Below are positions 14,083 through 40,498 of a stretch of DNA of 44,077 nucleotides, piece by piece. Position 1 is the first letter of the stretch, and every line of letters starts with the position of its first letter. This stretch comes from Vulcanimicrobiota bacterium (lineage in GTDB: Bacteria > Vulcanimicrobiota > Vulcanimicrobiia > Vulcanimicrobiales > Vulcanimicrobiaceae). The stretch lies in the NCBI GenBank assembly GCA_030038215.1, contig JASHPI010000148.1, positions 1 to 44,077 on the forward strand, written 5' to 3'. The notes below the pieces were generated by a model. It searched no databases, was not told the origin of the DNA, and worked only from the letters and a program-made list of their open reading frames with translations. The position numbers and the translations under genes were made by a program.

Positions 14083-14086
<4 letters not shown>

Positions 14087-18047: not shown

Positions 18048-19000
18048 GATCGCTCGATGTCGCTGACGAGATAGAGCGGGCGACCCTTCACCTCGTCGTA
18101 AACGCGACCGAGATACTCACCGAGAATCCCGAGGCTCATCAGCTGTACGCCACCTAAGAAAAGCACGGTGACGATCGTCGAGGCCCATCCCGGCGTATAG
18201 CCGGGCGGTTTCAGGCTGAAGAGTTTGAAGGCGACGATGATCAGAGCGTAGATGAAGGCAATCGCGCTGACCATGAAGCCGAAGTAGGATGCAAAGCGTA
18301 ACGGAATGTCGGAGAACGACGTGATGCCGTCCATGGCGAAGCGAATCATCTTGGTAATCGGGTATTTCGTCGTTCCCGAATAACGCACGTCGCGGTCGTA
18401 CTCGACGGCAACTTGATTGAAGCCCACCCAGCTGACCATGCCGCGCAGGAACCGATGGCGTTCCGGCGAGCGGCGCAAGGCTTCGACGACGCGACGGCTC
18501 ATCAGCCGGAAGTCGCCGGCATCGACCGGAATGTCCACCTTTGTCAGCCGCTTGATGATCCGATAGAAGGCGCCTGCGGTGAACAGCTTAAAGGCGCTCT
18601 CGCCTTTGCGCGTGCGCCGGACGGCGTACACGACGTCATAGCCCTGACGCCACTTGGCAACGAACTCGTCGATCAGCTCGGGCGGATCCTGCAGATCGCC
18701 ATCCATCAGCACGACGGCGTCGCCGGACGCCACCTCGATTCCCGCCGTGGCTGCCAGTTGATGACCGAAGTTGCGCGACAGATTGACGAGCACGAGGTGC
18801 GCTCGCCCTTTCATCTCGTTGCGAATTGCGGTCAGCGTGCCATCGCGGCTGCCGTCGTTGACGAGAATGATCTCGTAGCTGAGATCGCTGGGTAGACGCG
18901 CCAACGCCCCGGAGATGCGCTCCAAGAGCGGGGCGACGTTTCCGGCCTCATTGTAGAGCGGAACGACGATGCTGAGAGCCGGGTGATCGGAGTCCGTCAT
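18044..19000 (-). CDS. Bactoprenol-linked GT2 glycosyltransferase (GtrB/DPM1-like)
   Basis: A 318-residue protein. The GT2 domain starts LSIVVPLYNEAGNV (9-22), then VNDGSRDGT (48-55) and the nucleotide/metal-binding MDGDLQDPPELI (99-110). Two C-terminal helices (about 240-262 and 272-298) and the end GEYLGRVYDEVKGRPLYLV are characteristic of GtrB/YfdH/YkoT enzymes. These transfer a hexose from NDP-sugar to undecaprenyl phosphate on the inner face, supplying GT-C enzymes. The first gene of the minus-strand run; ATG 19000 fits the homologous start, though the ribosome binding site is weak. It is divergent from the lipoprotein at 19081, with an 80-bp shared upstream region. Confidence 0.93.
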   Translation of the reverse strand: MTDSDHPALSIVVPLYNEAGNVAPLLERISGALARLPSDLSYEIILVNDGSRDGTLTAIRNEMKGRAHLVLVNLSRNFGHQLAATAGIEVASGDAVVLMDGDLQDPPELIDEFVAKWRQGYDVVYAVRRTRKGESAFKLFTAGAFYRIIKRLTKVDIPVDAGDFRLMSRRVVEALRRSPERHRFLRGMVSWVGFNQVAVEYDRDVRYSGTTKYPITKMIRFAMDGITSFSDIPLRFASYFGFMVSAIAFIYALIIVAFKLFSLKPPGYTPGWASTIVTVLFLGGVQLMSLGILGEYLGRVYDEVKGRPLYLVSDIERS

Positions 19001-19080
19001 GAGGTCGCACTCTTTTTCAACACGTTGCGCGCGCCCGCTTGCCCAGCGGAACGCGAGGCTCGGGCGAGAAGCAACGCGCC

Positions 19081-19626
19081 ATGCCGCACCTTCGCTGGGG
19101 ACTCGCCATCGCCGCCTGCTGCTTCTGCCTGGGCGGCTGCAGCCGCCCAGGCGGCGCTTCGGCGCAACAAGCAACGGTCGCCGCGCCGTCTCCGGCGAGG
19201 ATGCGGGCAACGTCCACGCCGGTAGCGACCGTCGCGCGAGCCACGCCCACGCCTGTCCCGGCGGCGACCGCAACGCCGAGCGCCGCGGTCGTGCTGCGTA
19301 TCGCGAGGCCGCGAGCCAGCCTCGTTCCCAACTTGCCGCCCGACGCCGCGCCGCAAATCCTCAGCGTCGCGATCAACCGGCACGCGGTGCAGCCCGGAGA
19401 TCGCGTTACCGGCAACGTGCTGACGAGCTCAAACGTCGCCTCGGTCGAAGCGCGCATCGGCGGATACGCGGTCACGCTCGACAAAGTCGGCGTCGGACGC
19501 TTCACCTTCACCTACACCGTCGGCCCGCTCCCGTGGTTCATTCACGGGAACTACACGATGCAAGTGATCGCGCGCAACACGCGCGGCGACGCGGCGCGCC
19601 GTTCGATACCGCTGAAGGTTCGTTAG
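19081..19626 (+). CDS. Lipoprotein with C-terminal Ig-like beta-sandwich
   Basis: 181 residues. ATG 19081 gives MPHLRWGLAIAACCFCLGGC, a signal peptide with lipobox LGGC; an in-frame ATG at 19039 adds only a polar extension. A long Ala/Thr/Pro/Val-rich linker (about 25-75) would span the periplasm. The C-terminal 90 residues form a beta-sandwich (ILSVAINRHAVQPGDRVTGN, VEARIGGYAVTLDKVGVGRF, YTMQVIARNTRGDAARR), similar to bacterial Ig-like or cell-surface domains that bind partners. Its stop overlaps by four bases the stop of the convergent gene at 19623. It is possibly a partner of the outer-membrane pair, but this is inference. Confidence 0.8.
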   Translation: MPHLRWGLAIAACCFCLGGCSRPGGASAQQATVAAPSPARMRATSTPVATVARATPTPVPAATATPSAAVVLRIARPRASLVPNLPPDAAPQILSVAINRHAVQPGDRVTGNVLTSSNVASVEARIGGYAVTLDKVGVGRFTFTYTVGPLPWFIHGNYTMQVIARNTRGDAARRSIPLKVR

Positions 19627-22565: not shown

Positions 22566-23684
22566 ATGCCGCGCGTGGTGACGATTGTTATCGATTCGGG
22601 CGGAATCGGCGCGCTCGCCGATGCGAGCGAATACGGCGATGCGCCGGGCGCGAACACGATCGGCAACGTCGCGCGGAGCGTCGGCGGATTGCGTCTGCCC
22701 AACTTCGAGCGCCTGGGCCTTGGCCTACTGACGCCGGTGCGCGGCGTCGCAGCGGTGGAGGAGCCGCGCGCGCGAATCGCGCGCTTGCGCGAGCGCAGCC
22801 GCGGCAAGGATACGATCACCGGACATTGGGAGATGATGGGCATTCTGACGAGCGTGCCGTTTCCTACCTATCCGAATGGGTTTCCACCCGACGTCGTCGA
22901 GGGTTTTACCCGCATCGTCGGCAAGCCGCCGCTGGGCAATAAAGCCGCCTCGGGTACCGAGATCATCGAAGAGCTCGGCCCGGCGCACCTGGAGAGCGGG
23001 CGCCCCATCCTTTATACCTCCGCCGACTCAGTCTTTCAGATCGCGGCCCACGAGGAGGTTATCCCTTGCCCCACGCTGTACGAATGGAGCGAGCAAGCCC
23101 GCCAGATGCTGCGGTCGCCTCACAACGTAAACCGGGTGATTGCCCGCCCTTTTACGGGAGGACCGGGGTCTTTCCGACGAACGCCGAATCGGCGAGACTA
23201 TGCAATCGAGCCGCCCGCGAGCTTACTCGACGAGTTCGGCGCTCGGCACATCGAGGTGCATGCGGTCGGAAAGATCAGCGATATCTACTGCGGACATGGG
23301 GTCTCGTCGTCCGTGCGCGTGAGCGACAATCGGGATGCGATGGAGAAAACGTTCGAGTTGCTGGAAAACGTTGACCACGGTTTCATCTTCACGAACCTCA
23401 ACGACTTCGACTCGAAGTATGGTCACCGGCGCGATGCGTGCGGTTATGCCGCCGCTCTGCAAGAGTTGGACGCGATGATCGACGGCCTGTTGGCACGGCT
23501 TCGTCCCGGCGACGAGGTGATCTTCACCGCCGACCACGGGTGCGATCCCACGGCGCCCGGCTCCGATCATACGCGTGAATTCGTTCCGTTCATTCACTTC
23601 GGCAGGACCGCCGGTGCGATGCTGGGCGAGATCGAAGGTCTGGATTTCGTCGGCGCAACGGTTAAACAGGCCCTGCTGGCATAG
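22566..23684 (+). CDS. deoB: Phosphopentomutase
   Basis: 372 residues. DeoB interconverts ribose (or deoxyribose) 1- and 5-phosphate in nucleoside salvage, with two Mn ions. Landmarks: VVTIVIDSGGIGALADASEY (4-23; metal Asp10, with SGG where SVG is usual), GKDTITGHWEMMG (80-92; Thr85 is the position of the phosphothreonine in the Bacillus enzyme), TSADSVFQIAAHEEVIP, HNVNRVIARPFTG, SDIYCGHGVS, NLNDFDSKYGHRRD and FTADHGCDPTAPGSDHTREF (metal His/Asp). It is slightly shorter than the usual 390-400 residues. It is the first gene of the plus-strand glycan run; the next gene begins two bases after its stop. A ribose-1-phosphate enzyme next to AftD-like genes may be only a housekeeping neighbour. Confidence 0.95.
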   Translation: MPRVVTIVIDSGGIGALADASEYGDAPGANTIGNVARSVGGLRLPNFERLGLGLLTPVRGVAAVEEPRARIARLRERSRGKDTITGHWEMMGILTSVPFPTYPNGFPPDVVEGFTRIVGKPPLGNKAASGTEIIEELGPAHLESGRPILYTSADSVFQIAAHEEVIPCPTLYEWSEQARQMLRSPHNVNRVIARPFTGGPGSFRRTPNRRDYAIEPPASLLDEFGARHIEVHAVGKISDIYCGHGVSSSVRVSDNRDAMEKTFELLENVDHGFIFTNLNDFDSKYGHRRDACGYAAALQELDAMIDGLLARLRPGDEVIFTADHGCDPTAPGSDHTREFVPFIHFGRTAGAMLGEIEGLDFVGATVKQALLA

Positions 23685-23685
23685 C

Positions 23686-24330
23686 ATGCAGGCTACGATA
23701 CCGGCGGCAGTCGCCCGCCAAGTCCCAGACTCATGGCGCTCCGGGAAGCGAATGACCGATGTCATCGTCGGAAGCCTCTTTCTGATCGTCTCTGTGCCGG
23801 TCGTCGCCGTCGCCGCCGTCGCGATCATGTGCGTGGCCGGTGGAAGCCCGTTCTTCACGCAAGAGCGCGTCGGCATGCACGGTCGCCGCTTCAAGATGTA
23901 CAAGTTGCGCACCATGGTCAATGGCGCGGACGCGATGCGCCAGAGCGTGATGCATCTCAACGAGGTCGACGGACCCGTTTTCAAAATCCGCAACGACCCG
24001 CGCCTGCACCCGCTCGGACGGTTCCTGCGGCGCACGAGCATCGACGAGCTGCCCAACCTCATCAACGTCGTCTGCGGCGAGATGTCGCTCGTCGGCCCGC
24101 GCCCCGCGCTGCCGTGCGAAGTCGAGCACTATGACGCGTTCGCAGAGCGCCGGTTGAGCGTACCGCAAGGGGTCACGTGCCTGTGGCAGATCAACGGGCG
24201 TAGCGGCGTTTCGTTCGAGCACTGGATGGAGCTGGACAATCGTTACGTCGATACGTGGACGCCGTGGAGCGATCTGGCGATCATCGCCAAGACGGTGCCG
24301 GCGGTGCTGCGAAGGAACGGCGCTCATTAA
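23686..24330 (+). CDS. Polyprenyl-phosphate sugar-1-phosphate transferase (WbaP/PglC-like PGT)
   Basis: 214 residues, the small monotopic PGT core. A re-entrant membrane helix (24-52) is followed by FTQERVGMHGRRFKMYKLRT, VFKIRNDPRLHPLGRFLRRT, SIDELPNLINVVCGEMSLVG (catalytic Asp120-Glu121 dyad) and PRPALPCEVEHY, then PQGVTCLWQINGRSGVSFE. It transfers a sugar-1-phosphate from an NDP-sugar to undecaprenyl phosphate, the first committed step of a lipid-linked glycan. It starts two bases after deoB and its TAA overlaps the probable murJ start. The sugar specificity is not readable. Confidence 0.95.
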   Translation: MQATIPAAVARQVPDSWRSGKRMTDVIVGSLFLIVSVPVVAVAAVAIMCVAGGSPFFTQERVGMHGRRFKMYKLRTMVNGADAMRQSVMHLNEVDGPVFKIRNDPRLHPLGRFLRRTSIDELPNLINVVCGEMSLVGPRPALPCEVEHYDAFAERRLSVPQGVTCLWQINGRSGVSFEHWMELDNRYVDTWTPWSDLAIIAKTVPAVLRRNGAH

Positions 24331-25951
24331 GTCCTCGCATCTGCGCCTTGTCCCCGAGCCGCGGCGACATCCCCGAATCTCAATTGCCGGATCCACGCTC
24401 TTCATCATGGGTGCCACCTTGGCGTCGACGATCCTGGGCTTCATGCGCGAGGTCGTCAGCGCGAAGTACTACGGCACCAGCTGGCAGATGGACACGTTCT
24501 TGGCCGCGGCCACGATCCCAACGATCCTGTTCGGCGTTTTCAATGGCGCGCTCATCAGCGCGCTGGTGCCGACCTTCTCCGACTACCTCGCGCATCGCGA
24601 AGAGGACGAGGCCTGGCGTCTGGCCAGCACCGTCCTGAATATCCTTGCCATCGTCGTGACCGCCTGTGCGATCGTCGGCTTCTTTACCGCGCGCTGGTAC
24701 GTGCCGCTGATCGCGCACGGTTTCCCGGCGCCCCAGTTGGGCGTCGCCATCCGCATGACGCGCTGGTTGATGCCGAGCATCGTCGCCGTAAGCTTGAGCG
24801 GCGTGCTCTCGGCTATGCTCAACGCATACCATCGCTTTCGCTCGGCGGCACTGGTCGGCGTTGCGGTCAACGCGGTGACGATCGCAACCGTCGTTCTCCT
24901 GAATCATGGCATCGGCATCTACGCGCTCGTTTTGGGAACGGCTCTGGGGTTGACGGCGCAAATGCTGGTGCAGTTGCCCTCGTTTCTCTCGATCGGCAAG
25001 TATCGACTCGTGATCGACCTGCATCATCCGGGTCTCAAGCGGATTGGCGTTCTACTCGGGCCGATTATCGTTGGCTCCGCAGCCGGGCAGTTAGCGCTGT
25101 TCTTCGACCGCTTCTTTGCCTCGACGCTCTCGCCCGGCTTCATTGCCGGAATGAACTACGCAACCAAGCTGGTCAACTTTCCGCAGCAGATCTTCGCGGC
25201 GGCGATTGCGACGGTCATCTTTCCGTTGTTGGCCGCGCAGTTCGCTCGTGAGAACCGGCGGGGCGTGGCGCGCACCGTCGTCACCGGCTTGCGTCTGGTC
25301 AATTTCATCACGATTCCCTCGGTCTGTGCGTTGATCGTTCTGGCGCGGCCGATGGTGCAGACGCTCTTCGAACGCGGAACCTTCGAGGCGATTGCGACCG
25401 ATCTCACCGCAGGGCTCTTACCGTACGCGGCCATCGGTTTGATCGCGCTGGCCGCCAACGTCGTGCTGACGCGCTGCTGCTTCGCGTGTCGCGAAACAGT
25501 TTGGCCGGTCACCATTTCGGTCGTGACCGTGGTGGTGAACGTTCTGCTCTCGCTGGTGTGGCTGCCGAGCTTGGGCGCGCGCGGCTTGCTGCTTGCGAAC
25601 TCGACCAGTCAAACGATGCAGGCCGTTCTGCTGCTGATGGTGACGGCGCGTCTGGTTTCAGGCATCGATTGGGGCGTGCTGCTGGTCTCGACGGGCAAGG
25701 TCGCGCTCAGCTCGCTCGCGATGTTCGCGGCGTTGCACTGGATCAACGCTCTGGGCGTTACGCCCGAGGCGACCCTCGCCTCGCGAGCCTGGTTCCTCTT
25801 CGGCCAGATTGCAATCGGCGGGACGATCTTCATAGCCGTGGCCCGCGTGCTCGGCGTCGAAGAGCTCGAACTAGCCTGGCGCACGTTTGTCGCGAAGTTC
25901 GAGCGCAACCTGGTCAGCCCGCCTGAAAACCGCGAAGCTCCGATCGCGTAG
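24326..25951 (+). CDS. murJ: MurJ/MviN-family lipid flippase with probable ATT start
   Basis: About 541 residues, with some 13-14 helices of the MOP-superfamily MurJ family. It flips lipid II or lipid-linked glycans. Landmarks: GFMREVVSAKYYGTSWQMDT, VFNGALISALVPTFSDYL, MNYATKLVNFPQQIFAAAIA and ARPMVQTLFERGTFEAIAT. The first ATG (24407) falls in the middle of the first helix (ISIAGSTLFIMGATLAST). The only in-frame candidates that keep the helix are an ATT at 24326, whose TTA overlaps the upstream TAA with GAAGGA nine bases before it, or a CTG at 24341. I annotate the ATT. Whether it serves peptidoglycan or the local glycan is open. Confidence 0.9.
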   Translation: MKSSHLRLVPEPRRHPRISIAGSTLFIMGATLASTILGFMREVVSAKYYGTSWQMDTFLAAATIPTILFGVFNGALISALVPTFSDYLAHREEDEAWRLASTVLNILAIVVTACAIVGFFTARWYVPLIAHGFPAPQLGVAIRMTRWLMPSIVAVSLSGVLSAMLNAYHRFRSAALVGVAVNAVTIATVVLLNHGIGIYALVLGTALGLTAQMLVQLPSFLSIGKYRLVIDLHHPGLKRIGVLLGPIIVGSAAGQLALFFDRFFASTLSPGFIAGMNYATKLVNFPQQIFAAAIATVIFPLLAAQFARENRRGVARTVVTGLRLVNFITIPSVCALIVLARPMVQTLFERGTFEAIATDLTAGLLPYAAIGLIALAANVVLTRCCFACRETVWPVTISVVTVVVNVLLSLVWLPSLGARGLLLANSTSQTMQAVLLLMVTARLVSGIDWGVLLVSTGKVALSSLAMFAALHWINALGVTPEATLASRAWFLFGQIAIGGTIFIAVARVLGVEELELAWRTFVAKFERNLVSPPENREAPIA

Positions 25952-25969
25952 AGACCTCGACCGTGCGGG

Positions 25970-25994
25970 GAAATTGTTGACTAGAGTCAATTTC
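25970..25994. other. Bulged inverted repeat between murJ and the GT2 gene
   Basis: GAAAT-TGT-TGACT-AG-AGTCA-ATTTC: two 5-bp stem segments separated by a 3-base bulge on one side, beginning 19 bases after the murJ stop in the 88-bp gap to the next gene. A TTG within it (25977) is also a possible start for the following gene. It could be a weak terminator, an operator or an mRNA processing site; there is no T-tract. Confidence 0.3.
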
Positions 25995-26039
25995 TTGGAG
26001 CAGGCCAGCCTTCCTGGAAGAGTAAACCCTTCGTTGCCG

Positions 26040-26843
26040 ATGCTCTCGATTCTCATGCCGGCCTACAACGAGGCCAGCTCGATCGCACGAAATGTTTGCG
26101 AGACGGTGGAGACGATGCGAGCTTTGGGCATCGACTTTGAGATCCTCGTCATCGACGACGGCAGCATGGACGGCACGGACGTGGCCGCGATCGACGCGAT
26201 GCGCGCCTGCCCCGAGCACGTGCGCCTCGTGCGGTGCACGCGTAACGAAGGAAAGGGCAACGCGTTGGTGTGCGGGGCCGAGTATGCGAAGGGCGAGTAT
26301 GTCGCTTTCCTCGACGCGGACATGGACCTGCATCCCGAACACCTAGCCGGCTTCTTCGACATCATGAACGCGCGTCAAGCCGATGCCGTCATCGGTTCGA
26401 AGTTCCATCCCGGTTCGATCGTCGATTATCCGCTCGAGCGGCGCATCTACAGTTTCTTCTACTTCGTTCTGGTCCGCTTGATGTTCGGGCTTCCCGTACG
26501 CGACACGCAAACGGGAATCAAGCTCTTTAGGCGCGCGGTCCTTGAAACCGTGCTCCCGCGCTTGCTCGTCAAACGCTTTGCATTCGATCTCGAGCTGCTC
26601 GCGAACGCGCATCACTTCGGCTATCGCATTGCCGAGGCGCCGGTGAAGATTAACTTTCAGCGCCTCGGCAGCCGAATACGCTTGGATGCCGTTTGGAACG
26701 TCTTCTTAGATACGCTCGCGATCTTCTACCGCATGCGTATCCTGCATTACTACGACCGCATGCCGGCGACCGGCAACTCGAAGGCCGGCTCGCAAGAGGT
26801 TGTTGTCCGCGAGTTCGATACCAGGCCGATCGAGACCATTTGA
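26040..26843 (+). CDS. GT2 glycosyltransferase, DPM1-like
   Basis: 267 residues. Starts LSILMPAYNEASSI, then VIDDGSMDGTD (38-48), GKGNALVCGAEYAKGEYVAF, and the metal-binding LDADMDLHPEHL (91-102). The DTQTGIKLFRR motif marks dolichol/polyprenol-phosphate-sugar synthase relatives. It lacks clear C-terminal membrane helices. It probably makes a polyprenyl-phosphate sugar or transfers a sugar on the cytoplasmic side, feeding the GT-C proteins downstream. The ATG at 26040 is the simplest start; TTG 26034 sits at a better distance from GGAAGAG. Its TGA overlaps the next gene's TTG. Confidence 0.9.
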   Translation: MLSILMPAYNEASSIARNVCETVETMRALGIDFEILVIDDGSMDGTDVAAIDAMRACPEHVRLVRCTRNEGKGNALVCGAEYAKGEYVAFLDADMDLHPEHLAGFFDIMNARQADAVIGSKFHPGSIVDYPLERRIYSFFYFVLVRLMFGLPVRDTQTGIKLFRRAVLETVLPRLLVKRFAFDLELLANAHHFGYRIAEAPVKINFQRLGSRIRLDAVWNVFLDTLAIFYRMRILHYYDRMPATGNSKAGSQEVVVREFDTRPIETI

Positions 26844-27913
26844 CCTCTCGTACCGCGCTGGTGCCCCTGTTGTCGGGGCTCGGCGACGCCCTGAGCGCCA
26901 GCCCGATTCTGGCCGGGCTCGCGCGCTCGTCGTTCGCCGTCGACGTGCTCGCCATGCCCCGCGCCGAGGCCGAGTACGCCCATGCGTTACCGATCGTTCG
27001 CGAAGTCGTTCGGCTGCCGCTTCTCGAGCGGCCGGTACAAGCGCTGAGTCCGCTGCTTGGACTGCGGCGGCGGCGCTATGACGTTTGCGTCTTGCCGTGG
27101 CCGCACACGCGCTGGCAGTACGCGTTCGTAAGCCGGCTGGTTGGAGCCAAGTCGCTCTACATGCACGATTACGGCGGGATGTCGAAGCTCATCGCTTCGA
27201 CCGCGCCGGGCAGACTCGTGGCGCTTCGCGGCGGCCATCGCATCATGGAGAACGTGCGGCTGGCTCAGGCCATGGAGCTGGACCTCGGCGATACGCACGC
27301 CTACGTCGTTCCCGATGCGTGGCGACGCGAGCGCATCGCGGGCACGCTGGGCGTTCACCCGGGGTCGATGACCTACAAAGGAAACGAGGCGAAGCGCTGG
27401 CCGTACGAGCGCTTCATCGAACTGGCGCGAGTGCAGGCCGGCCGGGGCCGAAGCGTGCGCTTCTTTCTCGGCCCCAACGAGACCGACGAGGCGTTGCGCG
27501 CCGGGGAAGATCTGCGAGGCGTCGAGCGCATCACCATCATTCGGGAAAGCCTTGCCGACGCCGCGCGCAGCCTCTCCGAGTGCGAGGCCTTTGTCGGCAA
27601 CGACGCCGGTTTCACGCACCTCGCCTCGGGCCTCGGCGTGAAAACGCTGGCATTGTTCGGCATGACGAGCGAGGTCCGCGGAATTCCCGTCGGATCCGGC
27701 GTCGCGTTCCGGCCCTCGGCCTGTCCCGCCTGTCACGATGAAGGCATGCACGGCTTTGACTGCGTGCTCCGCCTCGATTATCGCTGCATCGTGAAGGACG
27801 TCGAGCTGAATGCCGTGATACGGCAGGTCGACCAGCTCTTCGAAGCACGGGCGATCGAACAGCATCTGAGCTTGGAAGGACCGTTCAAGCTGTACGGAAA
27901 GATCCGCTCGTGA
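26840..27913 (+). CDS. Family 9 glycosyltransferase (heptosyltransferase-like)
   Basis: 357 residues. The start is TTG 26840, overlapping the upstream stop (TTGA). The N-terminal Rossmann start is LVPLLSGLGDALSASPIL (GLGDAL is the acceptor-side GT9 motif). The C-terminal half has GVHPGSMTYKGNEAKRWPYE and FVGNDAGFTHLASGLGVKTL followed by ALFGM, which is the D-x-G-x-x-HLA-x-x-x-G NDP-heptose/sugar binding motif of WaaC/WaaF relatives. A cysteine pair (SACPACHDEG) lies near the end. It adds a heptose or other sugar to a lipid-linked or core acceptor in the cytoplasm. Its TGA overlaps the GTG of the AftD-like gene. Confidence 0.92.
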   Translation: MTSRTALVPLLSGLGDALSASPILAGLARSSFAVDVLAMPRAEAEYAHALPIVREVVRLPLLERPVQALSPLLGLRRRRYDVCVLPWPHTRWQYAFVSRLVGAKSLYMHDYGGMSKLIASTAPGRLVALRGGHRIMENVRLAQAMELDLGDTHAYVVPDAWRRERIAGTLGVHPGSMTYKGNEAKRWPYERFIELARVQAGRGRSVRFFLGPNETDEALRAGEDLRGVERITIIRESLADAARSLSECEAFVGNDAGFTHLASGLGVKTLALFGMTSEVRGIPVGSGVAFRPSACPACHDEGMHGFDCVLRLDYRCIVKDVELNAVIRQVDQLFEARAIEQHLSLEGPFKLYGKIRS

Positions 27914-30900
27914 AGCAGGAGGCTGCACCGGAGCTTTCCGAGCGCGACCGTTTGCCGCGCGCGCCGTTGCGTGCGCGTCCCTCGCGCGTGCCTTGGCCGC
28001 TGCCGTCGCGGTGGCACAAGCCTCTGGTCGCGGGTCTTTTCGTCGCGCTCGCGCTGCTAGCGACGGCCGGCTACGGAAGCGGGCTGCAGCTCAACGACGG
28101 GAACGTCGTGCTTCACCTCATCCCGTTCAAGTTTCTCGGGCAGCTCTTGCATGCATGGAATCCGTCGTTCTCGCTCGGCACGCACACCGGATATTGGGTT
28201 CCATACCAGACGCCTTACGGCTGGGCATACGGACTCGCCGCGCTCCTCCACCTGTCCCAAGAGCTCGCGCAGCGGGTCTGCCTGTTCCTCGTGTACCTCG
28301 GTTGCCTCGTCTCGATGTACTACTGCTTGCGCAGCGTAACGCCACGGCTCGACGAGGTCGCCAGGCTTGCGGGCTCCTGCGCGTACCTGTTCAACATGTA
28401 CGTTGCGCTGAATTCGCAGGCGCAGATCGTGTGGCTGCTTACCTACGCCACGCTTCCGGCGATGGTAGGCGTCACGGCACGCGCCATGCGTGGCGAACTG
28501 GGCGTCTGGCGCGCCGCCCTCGCAATCGCGCTGCTGGTCTTCGTCGGCGCCGGCGTCAACCCGCCGTTGCTCGCGATTAACGTCATCGTCTTGGCAATCT
28601 ACGTCGTCGTCGCGATTGTTTTCGCTTCTAACCCGGCCGCGCAGGCCAGGCAGGCGCTGCCGTTCGCTGCTGCGGCGTCGGTCGCCAGCCTCGCGATCAA
28701 TCTCTATTGGCTCGTGCCCTTCGTTGATTTTTTTCGCTACGTGTGGCTGAACGGCGTGCTGAGCGAGGCGCCGTCGATGCACAACGCCGCGACTTCGTTC
28801 TCCAACGTGCTGCGCGGGCTGGGCCACTGGGCGACGTTCGTTTCCTTTAGCGACCGGCCATACTATCCATGGGCCTCCTCGTACGCCGCCGGTTTCTTCA
28901 GCGCGGCGCTGTGGCTCGTCCCGATCATCGCGCTGGTGGGCGTGGCGTTCAAACGCAACCGCTCCGTCGCCACGCTCTATTTCCTGCTGGTCACGATCGT
29001 CTCGGTTCCGTTGGTCGTAGGCTACTATAAAGACGAACTCGGGAATGCCATCACCTCGCCCGTCTACGATCTGTTCTACCGGAATTTTCCTGGATTCCAG
29101 ATGTTTCGCTTTTCGTACAAATGGGTCGCGGGCGTCGAGTTCGGGATGTGCGGGCTGTATGCGCTTGCAGCCGGCGCCATCCTCACGGCGTCGCGCGAGC
29201 GATTGACCCAGAGCGCGGCGTCGATGCGCGAGCGCTTCGCGTGGACCGTTCCGGCGGCCGGGGCGGCCTTCGTGCTCTTGCCGATTCTGCTCTTCATTCC
29301 GGTGCTGCAAAAGAAGGCAAACTATCCCGGCCCCGTGATTCCGAGCTGGGAATATCGCGAGAATCAGCTGCTGGGCAACGATCGGAGCCATCGCGTCGCG
29401 ATCTTTCCCACGCAATTTCTCGAGCAGTTCGATTGGGGCTCGCCCGAGTTCTACATCGAGGACGCCTTCGTCGATCGGCCGATCATCTACGGGCGTCTGG
29501 GAAGCGAAGCGTCCGAGGGAACCGATCGCTGGATACGTGGAGCTTATCGCGCAACCCGTGAGGCGATGCCCCTGGCGGTCGACATGTTTCGCGTGCTCAA
29601 CGTCGACACGATCCTGCAGCGCGATGACTTCATCTCCGCGATCGACTTCAGCTTTCCCGAGCTCTGGGTTCCGAACAGCACGACGCTCACGCACGACTTG
29701 CTCCGTCGCGTTCTCGGGGCCCGGCCGGTTCGCTCGTACGGACCGCTGCGCGTCTATCATCTCGCGGGAGCGCTTCCCTTGTTGTACGGCGTCGTGCATC
29801 CGAAACTGACCGCGCTCCCGCCGTTTACCGACGCTTACCTGGGCGACATTCCCGCGATGGCCGCAGGGAGGGCCGAGTTCACGCTGCCCGCACCTGCCGC
29901 TCCCGAAACGATGGCGCTGATCGAGTCGCTCGCGCCGATTCTCCCCGGGACGGACCATCAGGTGCGCGATCTGGCGGTCGAGCAAAGCCTGGCCGAGAAC
30001 GGGATCAAGATCCATCCGCCGTCGGCCGACATCACCCTCGCGATCCCGTTTACCGTCAAGAGGTCCGGGCGCTACCTCGTCTTTGCCCGCGAGGACTCGC
30101 CGCTGTTCTACCGGCCCGCGCCGCGCAGCATGGGCATCGACGGTCAACTGCTCTCCCAACAAAGCTCGGGCGGCGCGTGGACGGATTTCGGAGCGATCGA
30201 CCTGGATGCCGGCGATCACGAAGTCTCCGATGGATTTCCGGACGCAAGTCTGACGGTCGCGCTCGTGAGGCCCGACGCGCTGCATGCCTGGGAAGACCGG
30301 ATCGGGGCGCTGCAGCGCGCACTTCCCAACAATCTCGCGGGGACGCGTTTCGTGAACGGACCCCAAACGCGCGTCTCCGTCGCGCGCGCCGGTCGCTATC
30401 GCATCCGCGCGAGGGCCGCGAGCCCATTATATTGGCAGGACGGCGACGAGCGCACGCACCTGCTTCGAGACACGCGCTCGGCCGGCAATATTCTTACAGG
30501 CCTCTCGTCGACGCTCCCGTACACCCTGGGCAACGGCACGGCCGGGACCGACCAAGTGACGATGCCCGAGTCCTGGTACAGGGATCCCGCGGTCTACCGG
30601 TGGCAGCGCGGCGACCCGATGTCGTGGTTTCTCTTTTCGGGTGACGCGCACGTCCTGGTCTTCGTCCCGGGGAGAGACGGCGTCTTAACGCGTGTGCGGA
30701 TGCACGTCGGCCGGCTGCAGGTCTCGCCGGTCATGCGCGTCGCGGTTGACGGTCGCGCGCTGCGCAGCGTCACGCTCTCCGGAGAAGCGGCGCGCGCCGA
30801 CGAGTACGATACACGCCAAAGGCTCGCCGGTCCAGGCCTCGCGTCGCTCGACTTCACGCTGCCGCTGCGTCCCGGTTGGAACGACGTTGCGTTCGGCTTC

Positions 30901-31836
30901 GATCCGCTCGCGGGCGAGCGCACGGATCTCGGAACTGGTGTGATCGCTGCCGCGGTGGCGCCGGATCTCTCTTTTACGCGCGTCGCGCGCCTGGCTCCGC
31001 TGCGTGCGGGTGCGCCGGTCGTGGCGGCTCCGAGCGTGGTCGGCGTAGCGGTGCCCCAGAACGGCCTTTTGGGCGATCCGAATCTCACGGGCAACGCCGT
31101 AGACACCGGCGGGCGCACCGTTCTTGCCGTAGCACTCGCCGGCCGCGCAGGCGTGGTCTACCGCATCATTCCGATCACGTTAGACGGTGATTTCGACCTG
31201 AGTTTCCTGCACGCATTTCCCAATAGTTGGAACGACGCTTCCGAGCGGATCGTGGGAGTGTGGTTCGTCGCCGGAGCGTCGCAGCCGGTCCTATGGAAAC
31301 TCTCCTATCGCCTGCATGCGATGCCGGCAGTGACGTTGCGCGATCGGAATGCGTTCGCAAGGCTCCCGGTTCGGCTCGACGGCAAACTCATCGGCGCCCA
31401 GCCCGTGTTTCTCTCGCGAGGCGAGCATCTGGTGGAGAGTGCCGAACCCAAGCTCAAAATCGAGCGGCTGACGGTCGAACCGGTTAGCCTCCCGAAAGCG
31501 CGACTGTTTGCGGTCTCTTGGAAGCGGCGCTCGCCGACCCAGCTCACCGTCAGCGTCAAAAACGCGACTCGTCCATTCCTGCTCGTCTTCGGCGAGACGT
31601 ACCATCCAGAGTGGCAGGCAACCCTCAATGGGAAGACGTTGGCGCACGTCGCCGTGAACGGCGTCGCGAACGGGTGGCTCGTACCGCGCCTGGCCGCGAG
31701 CGGCTCCGACATCATTCTTTCGTTCACGGCTCAGCGCAAGTATAACGACGCCGCTGTCGTCTCGCTCGTCAGCCTGATCGTGCTTCTCGCGCTTGCATTT
31801 GCTCCCCGGCGCTTGCGCCCGGCGCGCGCCTCGTGA
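27910..31836 (+). CDS. Giant AftD-like (DUF3367) GT-C membrane glycosyltransferase
   Basis: 1308 residues from GTG 27910. A basic N-terminus, then about a dozen helices to about residue 450, then some 800 outside residues and a last helix (about 1280-1300). The first outer loop reads LQLNDGNVVLHLIPFKFLGQ, LLHAWNPSFSLGT and YQTPYGWAYGLAALLHL. This fits the AftD/DUF3367 pattern of Asp + DPxxFL + LWxP + FG + YxxP, where the early Asp is catalytic. The outer part contains beta-sandwich modules (SGRYLVFAREDSPLFYRPAP; AGRYRIRARAASPLYWQDGD) like carbohydrate-binding modules. It ends with ETYHPEWQATLNG and VNGVANGWLV. In mycobacteria AftD adds arabinofuranose from decaprenyl-P-arabinose; here the sugar is unknown. 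Confidence 0.85.
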   Translation: MKQEAAPELSERDRLPRAPLRARPSRVPWPLPSRWHKPLVAGLFVALALLATAGYGSGLQLNDGNVVLHLIPFKFLGQLLHAWNPSFSLGTHTGYWVPYQTPYGWAYGLAALLHLSQELAQRVCLFLVYLGCLVSMYYCLRSVTPRLDEVARLAGSCAYLFNMYVALNSQAQIVWLLTYATLPAMVGVTARAMRGELGVWRAALAIALLVFVGAGVNPPLLAINVIVLAIYVVVAIVFASNPAAQARQALPFAAAASVASLAINLYWLVPFVDFFRYVWLNGVLSEAPSMHNAATSFSNVLRGLGHWATFVSFSDRPYYPWASSYAAGFFSAALWLVPIIALVGVAFKRNRSVATLYFLLVTIVSVPLVVGYYKDELGNAITSPVYDLFYRNFPGFQMFRFSYKWVAGVEFGMCGLYALAAGAILTASRERLTQSAASMRERFAWTVPAAGAAFVLLPILLFIPVLQKKANYPGPVIPSWEYRENQLLGNDRSHRVAIFPTQFLEQFDWGSPEFYIEDAFVDRPIIYGRLGSEASEGTDRWIRGAYRATREAMPLAVDMFRVLNVDTILQRDDFISAIDFSFPELWVPNSTTLTHDLLRRVLGARPVRSYGPLRVYHLAGALPLLYGVVHPKLTALPPFTDAYLGDIPAMAAGRAEFTLPAPAAPETMALIESLAPILPGTDHQVRDLAVEQSLAENGIKIHPPSADITLAIPFTVKRSGRYLVFAREDSPLFYRPAPRSMGIDGQLLSQQSSGGAWTDFGAIDLDAGDHEVSDGFPDASLTVALVRPDALHAWEDRIGALQRALPNNLAGTRFVNGPQTRVSVARAGRYRIRARAASPLYWQDGDERTHLLRDTRSAGNILTGLSSTLPYTLGNGTAGTDQVTMPESWYRDPAVYRWQRGDPMSWFLFSGDAHVLVFVPGRDGVLTRVRMHVGRLQVSPVMRVAVDGRALRSVTLSGEAARADEYDTRQRLAGPGLASLDFTLPLRPGWNDVAFGFDPLAGERTDLGTGVIAAAVAPDLSFTRVARLAPLRAGAPVVAAPSVVGVAVPQNGLLGDPNLTGNAVDTGGRTVLAVALAGRAGVVYRIIPITLDGDFDLSFLHAFPNSWNDASERIVGVWFVAGASQPVLWKLSYRLHAMPAVTLRDRNAFARLPVRLDGKLIGAQPVFLSRGEHLVESAEPKLKIERLTVEPVSLPKARLFAVSWKRRSPTQLTVSVKNATRPFLLVFGETYHPEWQATLNGKTLAHVAVNGVANGWLVPRLAASGSDIILSFTAQRKYNDAAVVSLVSLIVLLALAFAPRRLRPARAS

Positions 31837-32225
31837 ACGCATCCCGCGTCGCGCGGCTGACGGGACGTACGATCCGCGTCGCAATCGCGGTCGCGGTCGC
31901 CGCGTTTGTCTTGGCGGCCTTCGTTCCGCAGACCGCAGGGGAGCTTTTTTCGACGATCGGTTATCTCGCCGTCGTGCTTGCCTTTCTCACGCTTGCCGTC
32001 ACATGGTTTCTTCCGGCCGCCGCGCCCGATGCGGGCAGGCCGGCCCGTCAGCCGGCGAGTCGCGTGGTTTATGCGAGCGTCATCAGCGTTACGCTTGCGT
32101 CGATGGTCGGCGCTGCGCTTGTTTCGCAGCCGAGCGCCGAGGGTTTAGCCGCCCTCGCGTACGTGGGGCTCGTCGGTGTCGCGATCCTGATCGCCCTTCG
32201 ATGCTGGCTGCACGCGCGAAGCTGA
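31833..32225 (+). CDS. Small four-helix membrane protein
   Basis: 130 residues from a GTG overlapping the previous stop (GTGA). Four hydrophobic helices (about 16-34, 40-60, 80-98, 105-124), separated by a Pro/Ala/Arg linker (PAAAPDAGRPARQPASR). No motif or family is recognised, and it does not show clear GtrA features. Its 3' end overlaps the next gene by 25 bases. Its place between two AftD-like proteins suggests a small subunit or helper for them, but this is inference. Confidence 0.75.
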   Translation: MNASRVARLTGRTIRVAIAVAVAAFVLAAFVPQTAGELFSTIGYLAVVLAFLTLAVTWFLPAAAPDAGRPARQPASRVVYASVISVTLASMVGAALVSQPSAEGLAALAYVGLVGVAILIALRCWLHARS

Positions 32226-34522
32226 CTTTCCGCGCGAACAACCTGGCCGCCGCGGCAGCCGGCCTGGCTTTCGCCGCCTTCATATGCGCCAAGGGGATTC
32301 CGACGCTTCGGCACGATTGGAGCTGGCCGATCGATCGAGCGGCCGTTCCATTCTTTTTCAGCGCCGCCGTCAACGGCTGGCTTTCAGCCGGATTCGGCTT
32401 CGCCAATGCGCACCCGACAACGTACCTTTTGGCCTTGCCGATCGGTTTGGTCATGTGGCTTTTCGGTCCGCTCGCGGCGCTGGCGCTGTTTGCCTTCGTC
32501 GTCGGCGCGCTTTGCATGCGCGCCGTTGCCGCCATGGCCGAGCGCTGGCGTTGCGCGCCGCCGGCTGCGATCGGCCTCGGATTATTCGCGCTCTTCAATC
32601 CCTGGGTCTACAACCAAGTCGTCGCGGGGCATCTCGTGATGGTTTTCGCATACGCGGCGTTCATCGGTCTTTTGGCCGAAATGCTGCGCGGCACGGATGC
32701 ATCGTGGGTGCGCCTCGCGCTCTGGCTGGCGTTGATTGCCGCGCAGCTGCAACTCTTCATCCTTGCGATGCTCGCGCTGGTCGCGTTCGCAAGCGCAAGC
32801 AAGAAGTGGCAGCCGCTCGTCGCGGGCGCGCTCATCGCGCTTCCTTGGGTCATCGGCGTCGTGGCCGACCGTTCGGCGCTGCTGGGTATCCCGTACACGG
32901 TAACGTGGCAGGCGAATCAGTCGATCGACCCGTTGGCATTGCTGAGCCTGGGCGGATACTTTGCAGGCTACTCCGACAGGCTCGGTCTAGCGGCGCAAAT
33001 CGCGGTGTGGAGTACGCTCGCTATCGCGCTCACGGGCTTGATTCTTGCGGCGCGCCGCTCGCGCCCGGTGATCTGGGCTGCGCTCGCGGCGGTCGCGCTC
33101 TATGTGGCCATTCTCGGACTGCGTGGCCCGGCCGCCGCTCCGTATGAATGGCTGGTTCGTGACGTCCCCGAGACGGGCGTCTTTCGCGAGCTTTACGATC
33201 TGGCCGGGATCCTGGCCGCTCTGTTCGTCCTGCTCGCCTGTGCGGCCGCAGCGGCTTGGAAACCGATCGGCTATGCGACCCTCGCCGCCGGCGCACTCTT
33301 GATCGTGACGTGGATGATTGCGCCTCCCAGCGATCTCTGGATCGCGGGGCACAGCTACCCGCATCCGGACGTGCGGGCGCGGGCCTTCACGCGGGTCGCA
33401 TTCCTGCCGGCCTTTCAGCCCGTAGGGCTGCGTGCCGGCGGCGGCGCGGGCGCGGATCCCGATATCTACGAGCACCCCGGCGACGTCAGCGTGTTGAATG
33501 AATACTTTCCAACCTATCCGGTCGACATGGCGCTCGCCCAATACGAACAGAGCCGCGATCCGGCGGCGTTGCGCGCTTTGGGCGTGACAACCATCATCGC
33601 GCGTCCGTGGCTGGTTTCCCGATCGAACGGACGGATCGGCTTGGCCGCGCCTTCGTTGCTCCCGTCGCAGTCCGTGCCCCCGAGCGGGCCGCCGGGCGCA
33701 TATCTGAACGATGCGACGCCGTTGATATCGAACTGCGAAGCGCCTCGCGTCGTCTTGCTTCCGGGCGAGCTGGGCGCGTGTAATATTTTCTTCGGCGACA
33801 CGAAACGATACGGCCCGGTGCGTCCGCTCGAAACACTGAACGATTCGCTCGATCCGCGAACGGATTGGATCGACGCTCGGCTCGCCTTTGGGGAAATGCC
33901 GTCGGTGGCGCAAGGCATCGGAGGAACGCTCACGCAGTCGCATCTGCCATACCCCGTCGACCCCGGCGCCAACGTGTTGGTCTACGTGCATGGAATCTTG
34001 ACCGATTCTGCGGGGCGCATTCTAACGGTCCGCCGAGATGGATTTCGCTGGCTAACCCTGCCGTCCGATGCCAAGGCCGTTCAATGCGTCGGTCTTTGCG
34101 TGCTGGTAGCGCAGACCCGCGCGCTTCCCAAGCTGCCTGCTCGAGCCGGGCCTACGTCGTCCTGGGCCTGCGACTTTCGCAAGCTTGCGCCATGGCTCTA
34201 CGTCGTTAAGAGCGGGGCTCGCCCAGCTCGGCTCTTGCGCTTGAACGAACGCTACGATTCGGGCTGGATTGCACTAGACGGGTGGCAGGTTCTGCCCCAT
34301 CTGCGCGTCGACATGGCGGCCAACGGCTGGCTTTATCGAGACCAATCGTCAACGACGATCGTCCTCTTGCAGGCAACCTCGCTCTTGCAGTTGGTAGCCG
34401 AAATCCTCGGCATTCTCTGCGTCGCGTGGCTGCTCGTCGCGGCTACTCGGTATCGACCGGCAGATACGACGGCGTCTGATGCTCGAAGTACGCTCGGGAG
34501 TACTTGGACTCGATCGGTGTGA
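32201..34522 (+). CDS. Second AftD/YfhO-like GT-C membrane protein
   Basis: 773 residues from ATG 32201, which lies within the end of the preceding gene. About eleven helices lead to about residue 390, then an outside region and a final helix (about 735-757). The first outer loop carries LRHDWSWPIDRAAVPFFFSA and FGFANAHPTTYLLALP, placed like the catalytic loop of the 27910 protein. Residues VGLRAGGGAGADPDIYEHPG and VDMALAQYEQSRDPAALRAL begin the outer domain. The end, NERYDSGWIALDG and DMAANGWLYRD, repeats the Y-x3-W ... ANGWL module of the 27910 protein, so the two share a common C-terminal design. The gene overlaps the convergent phosphoesterase by 80 bases. Confidence 0.8.
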   Translation: MLAARAKLTFRANNLAAAAAGLAFAAFICAKGIPTLRHDWSWPIDRAAVPFFFSAAVNGWLSAGFGFANAHPTTYLLALPIGLVMWLFGPLAALALFAFVVGALCMRAVAAMAERWRCAPPAAIGLGLFALFNPWVYNQVVAGHLVMVFAYAAFIGLLAEMLRGTDASWVRLALWLALIAAQLQLFILAMLALVAFASASKKWQPLVAGALIALPWVIGVVADRSALLGIPYTVTWQANQSIDPLALLSLGGYFAGYSDRLGLAAQIAVWSTLAIALTGLILAARRSRPVIWAALAAVALYVAILGLRGPAAAPYEWLVRDVPETGVFRELYDLAGILAALFVLLACAAAAAWKPIGYATLAAGALLIVTWMIAPPSDLWIAGHSYPHPDVRARAFTRVAFLPAFQPVGLRAGGGAGADPDIYEHPGDVSVLNEYFPTYPVDMALAQYEQSRDPAALRALGVTTIIARPWLVSRSNGRIGLAAPSLLPSQSVPPSGPPGAYLNDATPLISNCEAPRVVLLPGELGACNIFFGDTKRYGPVRPLETLNDSLDPRTDWIDARLAFGEMPSVAQGIGGTLTQSHLPYPVDPGANVLVYVHGILTDSAGRILTVRRDGFRWLTLPSDAKAVQCVGLCVLVAQTRALPKLPARAGPTSSWACDFRKLAPWLYVVKSGARPARLLRLNERYDSGWIALDGWQVLPHLRVDMAANGWLYRDQSSTTIVLLQATSLLQLVAEILGILCVAWLLVAATRYRPADTTASDARSTLGSTWTRSV

Positions 34523-35792: not shown

Positions 35793-35860
35793 CCGCGCGA
35801 GCTTCGGTGATCCGCGAGGCGCTCCTCGGCGCTTTTTTGACGCAGGTTAACTTTTAGAGG

Positions 35861-37270: not shown

Positions 37271-37362
37271 GCCATTTTCTTCGTTCTGCCGCGTGCTACC
37301 ACCCGCGCGCCGGCTTGGAAGGCTCTCGTAACCGGTGCCACGAAGCGCGCATCGTGGCGACG

Positions 37363-38472
37363 ATGCAAGTACCGTTTGTCGATCTCAAGGCGCAGCTGAA
37401 CGAGTTACGCGAGGAGGTCATTCCTCGCATCATGACCGTGATCGAAGACTCGAGCTTCATTCTCGGACCCGACGTTGCGACTTTCGAGGAGAACTTTGCG
37501 GCTTACGTAGGCACGCGTTTTTGCGTCGGTGTCGACTCGGGCACCGCAGCCCTTCAGCTGGCATTGACGGCGATGAACGTCGGTCCCGGGGACGAGGTGA
37601 TCGTTCCGGCCAACACGTTCATTGCGTCCGCGGTTGCCGTTTCGGAAGTTGGGGCGCGTCCTGTCTTCGTTGACGTTGATGCAAGCTATTTAATCGATCC
37701 TGCGCTCCTCGACGCGGCGTTGACACCACGCACGAAAGCGATCATGCCGGTCCATCTTTACGGTCAAGCCGTGCCGATGGATCCGATCCTCGCATTTGCG
37801 CGCAAACACGGACTGCGTGTCATCGAGGATGCATGTCAAGCGCATGGCGCGCGCTGGAACGGACGGCGCGTCGGCAGCTTCGGAGATGCCGGCTGCTTCA
37901 GCTTCTACCCGGGGAAGAATCTGGGCGCATATGGTGACGGCGGCGCGGTTGTCACCAACGACGTAACGATTTGCGAGGGCGTCCGGCTGATGCGCGATCT
38001 CGGCCAGCGAAGAAAGTACGAGCATCTCGTGCGGGCCGGCAACAGCCGTCTGGACTCGGTGCAGGCTGCGGTCCTCGACGTCAAGCTGCGCCACCTGGAT
38101 CGATGGAACGATGCGCGCCGCCGTCACGCTAATTCGTATGACGCCAAGCTCAAGCAGATCGGCATTGCGCCGCCATTGCGCTTGCGCGACGAGGGTCACG
38201 TCTATCATCTCTACGTGATCGAGGTGGAGGACCGCTCCGCGGTGCGAGACGTTCTCGCGCAGCGCGGTGTAGCGACCGGCGTCCATTATCCCGTACCGAT
38301 CCATCTTCAACCCGCGTACGCCGACCTCGGCCTGGAACGCGGCTCGTTTCCGCGTACCGAGCGCAGCGCCGACCGCATCCTCTCGCTCCCGATGTTCGCC
38401 GAGCTGACCGAAGGGCAGATCGACGTCGTCGTCGAGGGGATCGAAGCGGCCGCGCATTTGGTACGCGCCTAG
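37363..38472 (+). CDS. DegT/DnrJ/EryC1/StrS sugar aminotransferase
   Basis: 369 residues from ATG 37363 (QVPFVDLKAQ is the usual family start; GTG 37354 is an alternative). It is a fold-type I PLP enzyme that aminates keto-sugar nucleotides. Landmarks: GVDSGTAALQLALTAMNVGP, GDEVIVPANTFIASA, MPVHLYGQAVPMDPI, VIEDACQAHGARW and GCFSFYPGKNLGAYGDGG, with the PLP lysine at Lys185. The end reads TGVHYPVPIHLQPAY. It resembles WbpE/QdtB-type enzymes acting on 3-keto sugars, which suits the dehydrogenase encoded 17 bases downstream. No acetyltransferase follows, unlike the WbpA-E cassette. Confidence 0.94.
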   Translation: MQVPFVDLKAQLNELREEVIPRIMTVIEDSSFILGPDVATFEENFAAYVGTRFCVGVDSGTAALQLALTAMNVGPGDEVIVPANTFIASAVAVSEVGARPVFVDVDASYLIDPALLDAALTPRTKAIMPVHLYGQAVPMDPILAFARKHGLRVIEDACQAHGARWNGRRVGSFGDAGCFSFYPGKNLGAYGDGGAVVTNDVTICEGVRLMRDLGQRRKYEHLVRAGNSRLDSVQAAVLDVKLRHLDRWNDARRRHANSYDAKLKQIGIAPPLRLRDEGHVYHLYVIEVEDRSAVRDVLAQRGVATGVHYPVPIHLQPAYADLGLERGSFPRTERSADRILSLPMFAELTEGQIDVVVEGIEAAAHLVRA

Positions 38473-38489: not shown

Positions 38490-39512
38490 ATGGAGCGCCA
38501 ACCTCTCACGGTAGCGGTCGTCGGTGCCGGTTACTGGGGTCCGAACCTGCTGCGAAACTTTCATGTCTCGCGCGCATGGACGGTCGCCGGCGTCGTCGAT
38601 AGTGACCGCGCCAGGCTCGAGAATATTGCACGGCTCTACCCGCAGCTTGCGTTGCATTCTGAGATCGACGAGATCCTGGAAGACGATCGAATCGACGCCG
38701 TAGCGATCGCGACCCCGCCTCGGACGCATTACGAGCTCGCTCGGCGAGCCATTGAAGCCGGGAAGCATATCTTGGTCGAGAAGCCATTGACCGAGAGCTA
38801 CCAGGACGCGCTCGATCTGTGCGATCGCGCCGAGCGCCGCGGCGTCCAAGTTATGGCAGACCACACGTTCTTGTATACGGGCGCGGTCGAAAAGCTGCGC
38901 GCGCTGTGCGCCGGCGGCGATCTGGGGCACATCTACTATATCGACGCGGTTCGCGTGAATCTGGGCCTTTTCCAGGAGAGCAACGTCGTCTGGGATTTAG
39001 CGCCGCATGACATCTCGGTGATCAACTACATCCTAGGCGAATGGCCTGCCGTGGTCTCGCTTCAAGCCGGTACCTGCGTTCATGCCGAGACGCCCGACGT
39101 GGCCTTCCTCACGATGTGGTATCCGAGCGGGTGCATAGCCCACATTCACCTGAGCTGGCTCTCGCCGGTCAAGGTCCGGCGCACCATGATTTCCGGCAGC
39201 CGTAAGATGGCGGTGTGGGACGACGTCGATCCAACTCAGAAAATCTACATCTATGACAAGAGCGTGGTGCTCGATCCGAGCAGTACCACGCTTGCGCAGC
39301 AGATGGTGTCGTATCGGCTTGGCGACCTCAACGTTCCATTGATCGACAGTCGGGAAGCGCTGGCGAAGTTGGTGGACGAGTTTGCGGCCACGATTCGAGG
39401 AGAAGTCGCCACGCGCTCGAGCGGGCGTTTTGGCGCGGGCGTCGTGCGAGTCATCGAAGCCGCATTGCGCTCGGCCGAACGCGAGGGCGCGAAGGAACAG
39501 GTGGGCGATTGA
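38490..39512 (+). CDS. Gfo/Idh/MocA-family sugar dehydrogenase
   Basis: 340 residues. N-terminal NAD(P) fold VAVVGAGYWGPNLLRNFH (8-25), IATPPRTHYELARRAIEAGK (73-92), and the EKPL box (97-100). The substrate domain has VVWDLAPHDISVINYILGEW, with the conserved His in the APHD motif. This sequence type, beside a DegT aminotransferase, oxidises C-3 of UDP-GlcNAc or UDP-GlcNAcA to the keto sugar that is then aminated. Its TGA overlaps the TTG start of the next gene (TTGA). The exact NDP-sugar is inference. Confidence 0.93.
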   Translation: MERQPLTVAVVGAGYWGPNLLRNFHVSRAWTVAGVVDSDRARLENIARLYPQLALHSEIDEILEDDRIDAVAIATPPRTHYELARRAIEAGKHILVEKPLTESYQDALDLCDRAERRGVQVMADHTFLYTGAVEKLRALCAGGDLGHIYYIDAVRVNLGLFQESNVVWDLAPHDISVINYILGEWPAVVSLQAGTCVHAETPDVAFLTMWYPSGCIAHIHLSWLSPVKVRRTMISGSRKMAVWDDVDPTQKIYIYDKSVVLDPSSTTLAQQMVSYRLGDLNVPLIDSREALAKLVDEFAATIRGEVATRSSGRFGAGVVRVIEAALRSAEREGAKEQVGD

Positions 39513-40498
39513 AGATTTCCTTGATCGTGGCGACGCTCAACGAGATCCGAAGGCTTCCGCGTCTGGTTGATAGCATCACCAGCCAAACCTATCCGCGCGA
39601 GTTGGTCGAGATCATCATCGCCGACGGCGGCTCTACCGACGGGACGGCCGAATATGCCGAATCGGCAGGCTGCATCGTCGTCCACAACCCGCACCGCCGT
39701 GCCGAGCCCGGGATCGTCGTGGGCTGCGCCGTGGCGACCGGCGACCTCGTAGCCAGCTTGGCCGCCGACACCGTTTTTCATGACCGCGACTTTATCGCGA
39801 AGATGGTCGCTCCGTTTGCCGATCCCAACGTCTACGTATCCGTCGCCAGGGTCGTCAGCACGCAAGAGGATTGTTTGGCGACCCGTTACATCAACGAGTT
39901 TACCGATCCGTTCAATCATTTTCTCTATGGCGACGCGGCTTCGCTCGCCACGTTTGACTTCGCGTACAAAACTAAGCGCGCCACGCCGGGGTACGTGGTC
40001 TACGATTTTCCGCTCGACGCACCGCCGCTAGTCGCCTTCGCGCAGGGGACGACGCTGCGCGCCGGGTTCGCCCGCCGGACGGGCACCGAAGAAGACGACA
40101 TCCTCCCGGTGATGGACGTTCTGCGCGAGGGCCGCGAAATCGCTTGCGTTCCCAGTGCACGCATCGAGCATCACACCGTTGCCAGCTTAGGCGACTTCGT
40201 GCAAAAGTTCGGTCCGCGCATTGCAAAGCGGCTGGAGGACCGCAGCCAGCCGCTTTGGCAGCGCGCGGCCTTCTGGACGAAGCAGCGTAAGGTGCGCGCC
40301 TATCTCTGGCCGTTTTACGCCGTCAGCGTGGTCGGCCCCATCTTAACGGCTCTCTACGGGTTGGCTCGCGACCGGCGCGCGATCTGGCTCTACCATCCGG
40401 TGATTACCTTCGCGCTGGGCATCGAGTTTTGGCGTCGTGCCGTGCCGTACGCATGGTCGCTCGCGCTCTGCCGCCTGCGCGGCGAGGCCGGACGCTGA
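39509..40498 (+). CDS. GT2 glycosyltransferase with C-terminal membrane helices
   Basis: 329 residues from TTG 39509. N-terminal GT2 start ISLIVATLNEIRRLPRLVDS (3-22), then IIADGGSTDGTAEYA (36-50) and GDLVASLAADTVFHDRDF. The last holds AAD where the usual metal-binding motif is DxD, so catalysis may rely on Asp87 alone or on a changed metal site. A basic/aromatic stretch (QKFGPRIAKRLEDRSQPLWQ) precedes two C-terminal hydrophobic helices (about 270-320). It probably adds the amino sugar to a lipid-linked chain at the inner membrane. Coupled to the dehydrogenase upstream and epimerase downstream. Confidence 0.88.
   Translation: MKISLIVATLNEIRRLPRLVDSITSQTYPRELVEIIIADGGSTDGTAEYAESAGCIVVHNPHRRAEPGIVVGCAVATGDLVASLAADTVFHDRDFIAKMVAPFADPNVYVSVARVVSTQEDCLATRYINEFTDPFNHFLYGDAASLATFDFAYKTKRATPGYVVYDFPLDAPPLVAFAQGTTLRAGFARRTGTEEDDILPVMDVLREGREIACVPSARIEHHTVASLGDFVQKFGPRIAKRLEDRSQPLWQRAAFWTKQRKVRAYLWPFYAVSVVGPILTALYGLARDRRAIWLYHPVITFALGIEFWRRAVPYAWSLALCRLRGEAGR

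Follow-up and report, generated by a model that had tools for sequence, protein, structure and literature searches.

Two large membrane proteins encoded almost side by side in the genome of an uncultured bacterium from soil (family Vulcanimicrobiaceae), here designated P1 and P3, are probably a pair of AftD-type periplasmic GT-C transferases that decorate an outer-membrane polysaccharide with sugars taken from undecaprenyl-phosphate donors. The observations that bear on this assignment are the family to which P1 belongs, the fold of P3, a module common to the two C-termini, the conservation of the operon and a set of conserved acidic residues.

Gene cluster and host

The window, i.e. the whole stretch of DNA analysed (44,077 bp), is a contig of a 2.35 Mb MAG that is 85% complete. 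The genomes of the genus used for comparison are also MAGs, and gene absences in them are not absolute. Close relatives of the locus belong to Candidatus Eremiobacterota and LpxC was found in 16 of the 18 genus genomes, in agreement with a preliminary description of this DNA in which the host was placed among diderms outside Actinobacteria. The outer membrane of cultured Vulcanimicrobium is described as LPS-covered (PMC9758169).

The three open reading frames that had been proposed at 27910-34522, of 1308, 130 and 773 aa, are all present, and each overlaps the next (27910-31836, 31833-32225 and 32201-34522, all on the + strand). The PGT, GT2, GT9 and flippase genes that had been placed upstream of P1 were recovered from Pfam and NCBIfam matches, the flippase being of the MurJ family. 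The features are as follows.

18044..19273, - strand: polyprenyl-phosphate glycosyltransferase of ArnC/PgfS type, TM segments at its C-terminus, which may make the donor (PgfS 9e-87, ArnC 1e-51, both below cut-off)
23575..24330, + strand: PGT (Bac_transf; PF02397, 5e-59)
24407..25951, + strand: MurJ (TIGR01695, 6e-94)
25887..26843, + strand: GT2, possible polyprenyl-phosphate sugar synthase (PF00535, 1e-29; best NCBIfam match PpgS, 9e-17, below the PpgS cut-off; synteny)
26693..27913, + strand: GT9 (heptosyltransferase family), operon partner conserved in the genus (PF01075, 8e-18; synteny)
27910..31836, + strand: P1, 1308 aa (PF11847 match; profile match to AftD chains)
28096..28098, + strand: Asp63 of P1 (LND), candidate catalytic aspartate, located in the first outside loop (conserved in alignment; GT-C rule)
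31594..31677, + strand: core of the P1 module, ETYHPEW...NGW, residues 1229-1256 (profile and motif matches)
31833..32225, + strand: P2, 130 aa, two TM hairpins (hairpin-repeat model; four hydrophobic segments)
32201..34522, + strand: P3, 773 aa, part of a longer open frame (AlphaFold model, Foldseek)
32315..32317, + strand: Asp39 of P3 (RHDW), candidate catalytic aspartate, immediately following TM1 (invariant in homologs)
34244..34330, + strand: core of the P3 module, NERYDSGW...NGW, residues 682-710 (profile and motif matches)
37315..38472, + strand: DegT/DnrJ sugar aminotransferase (PF01041, 3e-117; synteny)
38490..39512, + strand: Gfo/Idh/MocA sugar dehydrogenase (PF01408, 1e-29; best NCBIfam match UDP-GlcNAc 3-dehydrogenase NF040723, 1.6e-38, below cut-off)
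39509..40498, + strand: second GT2, conserved 3' of the Gfo/Idh dehydrogenase (PF00535, 4e-21; 22 loci)

Synteny comparison disclosed the gene order deoB-PGT-murJ-GT2-GT9-P1-P2-P3-DegT-Gfo/Idh-GT2 genus-wide wherever contigs allow, and the P1-P2-P3 run, for which a search of related genomes had been proposed, is kept across the genus. In other genus members the DegT gene lies directly 3' of P3. Only in the present genome, two minus-strand genes at 34443-37270, phosphoesterase/PLC-like and metallo-beta-lactamase-fold respectively, are located between them, and neither has a homolog in 65 related loci. The sequence coding for the P3 terminus in the nearest relative continues here at about 37310, so that approximately 2.9 kb seems to have entered within the final codons of P3, altering its C-terminal tail.

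Two further regions of the window were recorded. At 20498-22498, divergent from deoB, is a conserved 666-aa outer-membrane-type protein with no Pfam match, LptD-like by eye, the profile of which matched no solved PDB structure. A DUF2079 membrane protein (PF09852) is encoded at 14083-15450, with a 445-aa ORF without a Pfam family upstream of it.

AftD-like proteins P1 and P3

AftD is a mycobacterial arabinofuranosyltransferase (PF11847; PDB 6W98, 6WBX and 6WBY), and P1 has the same GT-C N-terminal domain and a large outer part. In P1 the N-terminal AftD-type GT-C domain is followed by outer domains, mostly of beta type, spanning about 700 residues, a module at approximately 1185-1275 and a last TM helix. 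The likeness to AftD noted in the preliminary description was borne out, as GT-C_AftD (PF11847) was the sole Pfam match of P1 (6e-15; 54.7 bits vs a cut-off of 26; residues 58-525), and the family was also found in 12 of 14 genus orthologs. A literature search for papers on DUF3367 found none.

A profile of the P1 orthologs matched the AftD chains 6W98 and 6WBX among PDB sequences (E ~1e-8) in two stretches. The first corresponds to the first part of the GT-C domain and is weak alone (i-E 0.34), and the second, stronger one is the C-terminal module, profile positions 1184-1287 aligning with AftD 1178-1282 (i-E 3e-5). Profiles were needed, single-sequence searches of PDB sequences with P1 and P3 giving nothing useful. 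The AlphaFold model of P1 (residues 109-1308, 12 sequences) is of low confidence (pLDDT 48, pTM 0.29), and the Foldseek search with it, in which AftD was the top match (3e-10), is supportive only. No Pfam CBM was found above cut-off in residues ~500-1185, one ortholog having CBM_6 at 0.046, and the middle domains of P1, for which the model is poor, are at most putative CBMs.

Asp63 of P1 is invariant in the 11 sequences that reach that point and is aligned by the profile match with Asp40 of AftD chain 6W98. In GT-CA enzymes the tip of the first juxtamembrane helix must carry an aspartate (PMC12041299), and by this rule Asp63 is a candidate for the catalytic residue.

P3 consists of a GT-C membrane domain (~1-380), a beta-type outer domain, the C-terminal module and a last TM helix. 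Its relation to AftD, also proposed earlier, was seen by fold: no relevant Pfam family, PF11847 included, matched P3 and its homologs (n = 28), and the P3 profile found no AftD chain among PDB sequences. The AlphaFold model of P3 (24 sequences) is confident (pLDDT 88, pTM 0.89), and Foldseek placed the three AftD entries first among its PDB matches (E 8e-10 to 1e-8, TMq 0.52-0.54), with 6W98 the best (8e-10, TMq 0.54). ArnT, OST, EmbC and PglB came next. Because the structural alignment covers nearly all of AftD with long gaps, P3, at only 773 aa, looks in its predicted structure like an AftD-like fold without the CBM insert; it is too short to hold three CBMs. The GT-C parts of P1 and P3 also match each other (profile-profile E 1.2e-8). 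Asp39, His144, Glu330 and Asp333 of P3 are invariant in 28 of 28 homologs.

These four residues resemble a retained active site, which argues against P3 being a non-enzymatic helper that, like MmpA, moves or anchors lipid-linked material for P1. MmpA (Rv0226c; NF053599) is likewise an AftD relative encoded near AftD, with partial homology to it and nine genes from it in M. tuberculosis, and no enzymatic role is known for it (PMC8698533). P3 does match the NCBIfam MmpA model weakly (7e-5), as do 9 of the 28 homologs (best 1.6e-7), but its score of 21.6 bits falls far short of the curated cut-off of 210; P3 is also larger than MmpA and has the C-terminal module. As the best structural matches of P3 are catalytic GT-C enzymes, a helper role is considered improbable. 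Even less probable is that P1 or P3 transfers whole glycans as a ligase or oligosaccharyltransferase, e.g. a polysaccharide onto lipid A core or protein. Although OST and PglB follow in the structural ranking of P3, AftD fits much better (8e-10, compared with 5e-3 or worse), and separate Wzy_C/ligase-type genes are present in the genome and in the window.

By profile search, a P3-type relative (E 0.001 or better) was found in 71 of 149 phylum genomes, and PF11847 in 33. At 9 of 16 loci outside the genus that had been chosen by P3 alone, the fetched stretch contained a second such large ORF; in one of them (L098) the PF11847 match of the partner is below cut-off. One P3-type locus (L124), of a kind otherwise seen in Eremiobacterota or unnamed bacteria, is from a genome labelled Rhodospirillales, possibly mislabelled or misbinned.

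Shared C-terminal module and P2

The preliminary description had assigned P1 and P3 a common C-terminal module. It is indeed present in both C-termini, each time followed by one TM helix, but is not particular to this pair, occurring also in AftD, a YfhO protein and many Eremiobacterota paralogs. The P3 sequence alone detected the P1 C-terminus in its own genome (E 3.7e-4), and the P3 profile detected it with E 6.3e-11, together with the P1 ends of 16 other genus members. With the module profile of P3, P1 orthologs scored 39-55 bits (best shuffle 9.1), and with that of P1, P3 homologs scored 12-42 bits (best shuffle 8.6), about 3,700 shuffled sequences being used in each case. Judged by sequence, the likeness of the two modules is far above chance.

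At the stretch aligned with the P1 module, AftD reads ESINPGWAA...VRVNGWQQGWVLP, the same W...VNG..GW module located just before a TM helix, and the module is therefore part of AftD itself. P1 ends about 10 residues past the position aligned with AftD 1282, whereas the AftD chain runs to 1413. Both P1 and P3, ending one TM helix after the module, are without the last membrane helices of AftD and its R1389 region, which binds ACP. Related to the module, too, is the end of a YfhO (PF09586) protein from this genus, which scored 17 bits with the P1 module profile, compared with 9 or less for shuffles of other sequences; no PF09586 match was found in P1, in P3 or among the sequences aligned with them. 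Many phylum ORFs of 700-1,500 aa, encoding large membrane proteins, carry the module. On one contig (C16 of G041, locus L087) several large AftD-like or module-bearing ORFs occur together.

P2, earlier described as a four-helix protein, does have 130 aa and four hydrophobic segments, but is better seen as the two-hairpin form of a repeat protein. Most genus members have, at this place between P1 and P3, a gene of roughly double the length (~270-400 aa) that encodes four or five TM-hairpin units. Two units are present in P2 of the window and of its closest relative, and two to five across the genus (L062-L073). Scores of the repeat model are not independent for units used as seeds; loci that were not seeds match too. 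The simple four-helix reading was thus replaced by that of a short TM-hairpin-repeat protein. No Pfam match over cut-off, and none to the GtrA family, was found for P2.

Donor, sugar and product

The preliminary description also proposed a furanose- or pentose-type product, and this was not supported. The ALO family (PF04030), which includes DprE1, was found in none of the 18 genus genomes, and UDP-galactopyranose mutase (GLF) in one of them. One of the two UbiA proteins in the present genome is heme O synthase and the other a menaquinone prenyltransferase, with no DPPR synthase among those of this 85% complete MAG. On the ALO, GLF and UbiA tests arabinan assembly was rejected as the leading reading, and the DPA donor route of AftD was not found by these tests. 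Since the C-terminal helices beyond the module are missing and the donor-pathway test failed, the right label for P1 and P3 is AftD-like, not AftD.

DeoB is usually a nucleoside-salvage enzyme. That the unit nevertheless assembles an arabinofuranose or other pentofuranose glycan like AftD, from a decaprenyl- or undecaprenyl-phosphate pentose donor, is very unlikely: P1 is in the AftD Pfam family, P3 has the AftD fold and a phosphopentomutase gene heads the operon, but the donor genes were not found, as described, the linked sugar genes encode an aminotransferase and a Gfo/Idh dehydrogenase, and the linkage of deoB with PGT and MurJ extends to loci that have no P1 ortholog (L085, L090 and L095).

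The linked DegT and Gfo/Idh genes point to an amino sugar, and by analogy with GnnA/GnnB suggest a 3-amino sugar such as UDP-GlcNAc3N.

The flippase that had been described upstream proved to be of the MurJ family; a dedicated glycan role for it was rejected, as each of the 18 genomes has one MurJ and no other (in G010 the gene is divided between two frames). It therefore probably flips lipid II, and is weak evidence for the P1/P3 pathway. The deoB-PGT-murJ block, containing the sole MurJ, was also seen in several other genera, where other glycan genes lie downstream of it. Wzy_C-type proteins were found in 16 of 18 genus genomes, with one gene in the window, and a 446-aa Wzx-type ORF lies about 10 kb from P3 in many genus members, several of the matches being below cut-off.

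For the two AftD-like transferases we infer the following route. P1 and P3 would sit in the inner membrane with their active sites toward the periplasm, each taking a sugar from an undecaprenyl-phosphate donor by means of the invariant aspartate after TM1 (Asp63 and Asp39, respectively) and adding it to a lipid-linked polysaccharide held by the outer beta domains, and the W...NGW module may close the outer part by returning it to the final membrane helix. The acceptor would be built in the cytoplasm by the PGT, GT2 and GT9 of the operon, DegT and the Gfo/Idh dehydrogenase would supply the amino sugar, and the GT2 at either 25887-26843 or 18044-19273 could make the undecaprenyl-phosphate donor. 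The product would be an outer-membrane or surface polysaccharide, probably not an arabinan. In its logic, a GT-A donor maker, a flippase and a GT-C enzyme, this route is like the multi-component transmembrane glycosylation systems (PMC8035078). A more speculative extension, which we regard as rather unlikely, is that P1, P2 and P3 are united in a single membrane complex as a split AftD-type system, in which P1 contributes the acceptor-binding domains, P3 is a minimal CBM-less AftD and the hairpin-repeat protein P2 is the dedicated carrier of the undecaprenyl-phosphate donor; it would make an as yet undescribed amino-sugar polysaccharide of the Eremiobacterota outer membrane.

AftD-type enzymes have been studied in arabinan assembly and are now found in an LPS-type diderm seemingly without an arabinose donor pathway, and therefore the family probably uses a wider range of sugars than its name implies. 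P3, compact, AftD-like in fold, free of CBMs and as yet without a Pfam family, has relatives in about half of the phylum genomes examined and would offer a simple target for asking what role the conserved C-terminal module has.
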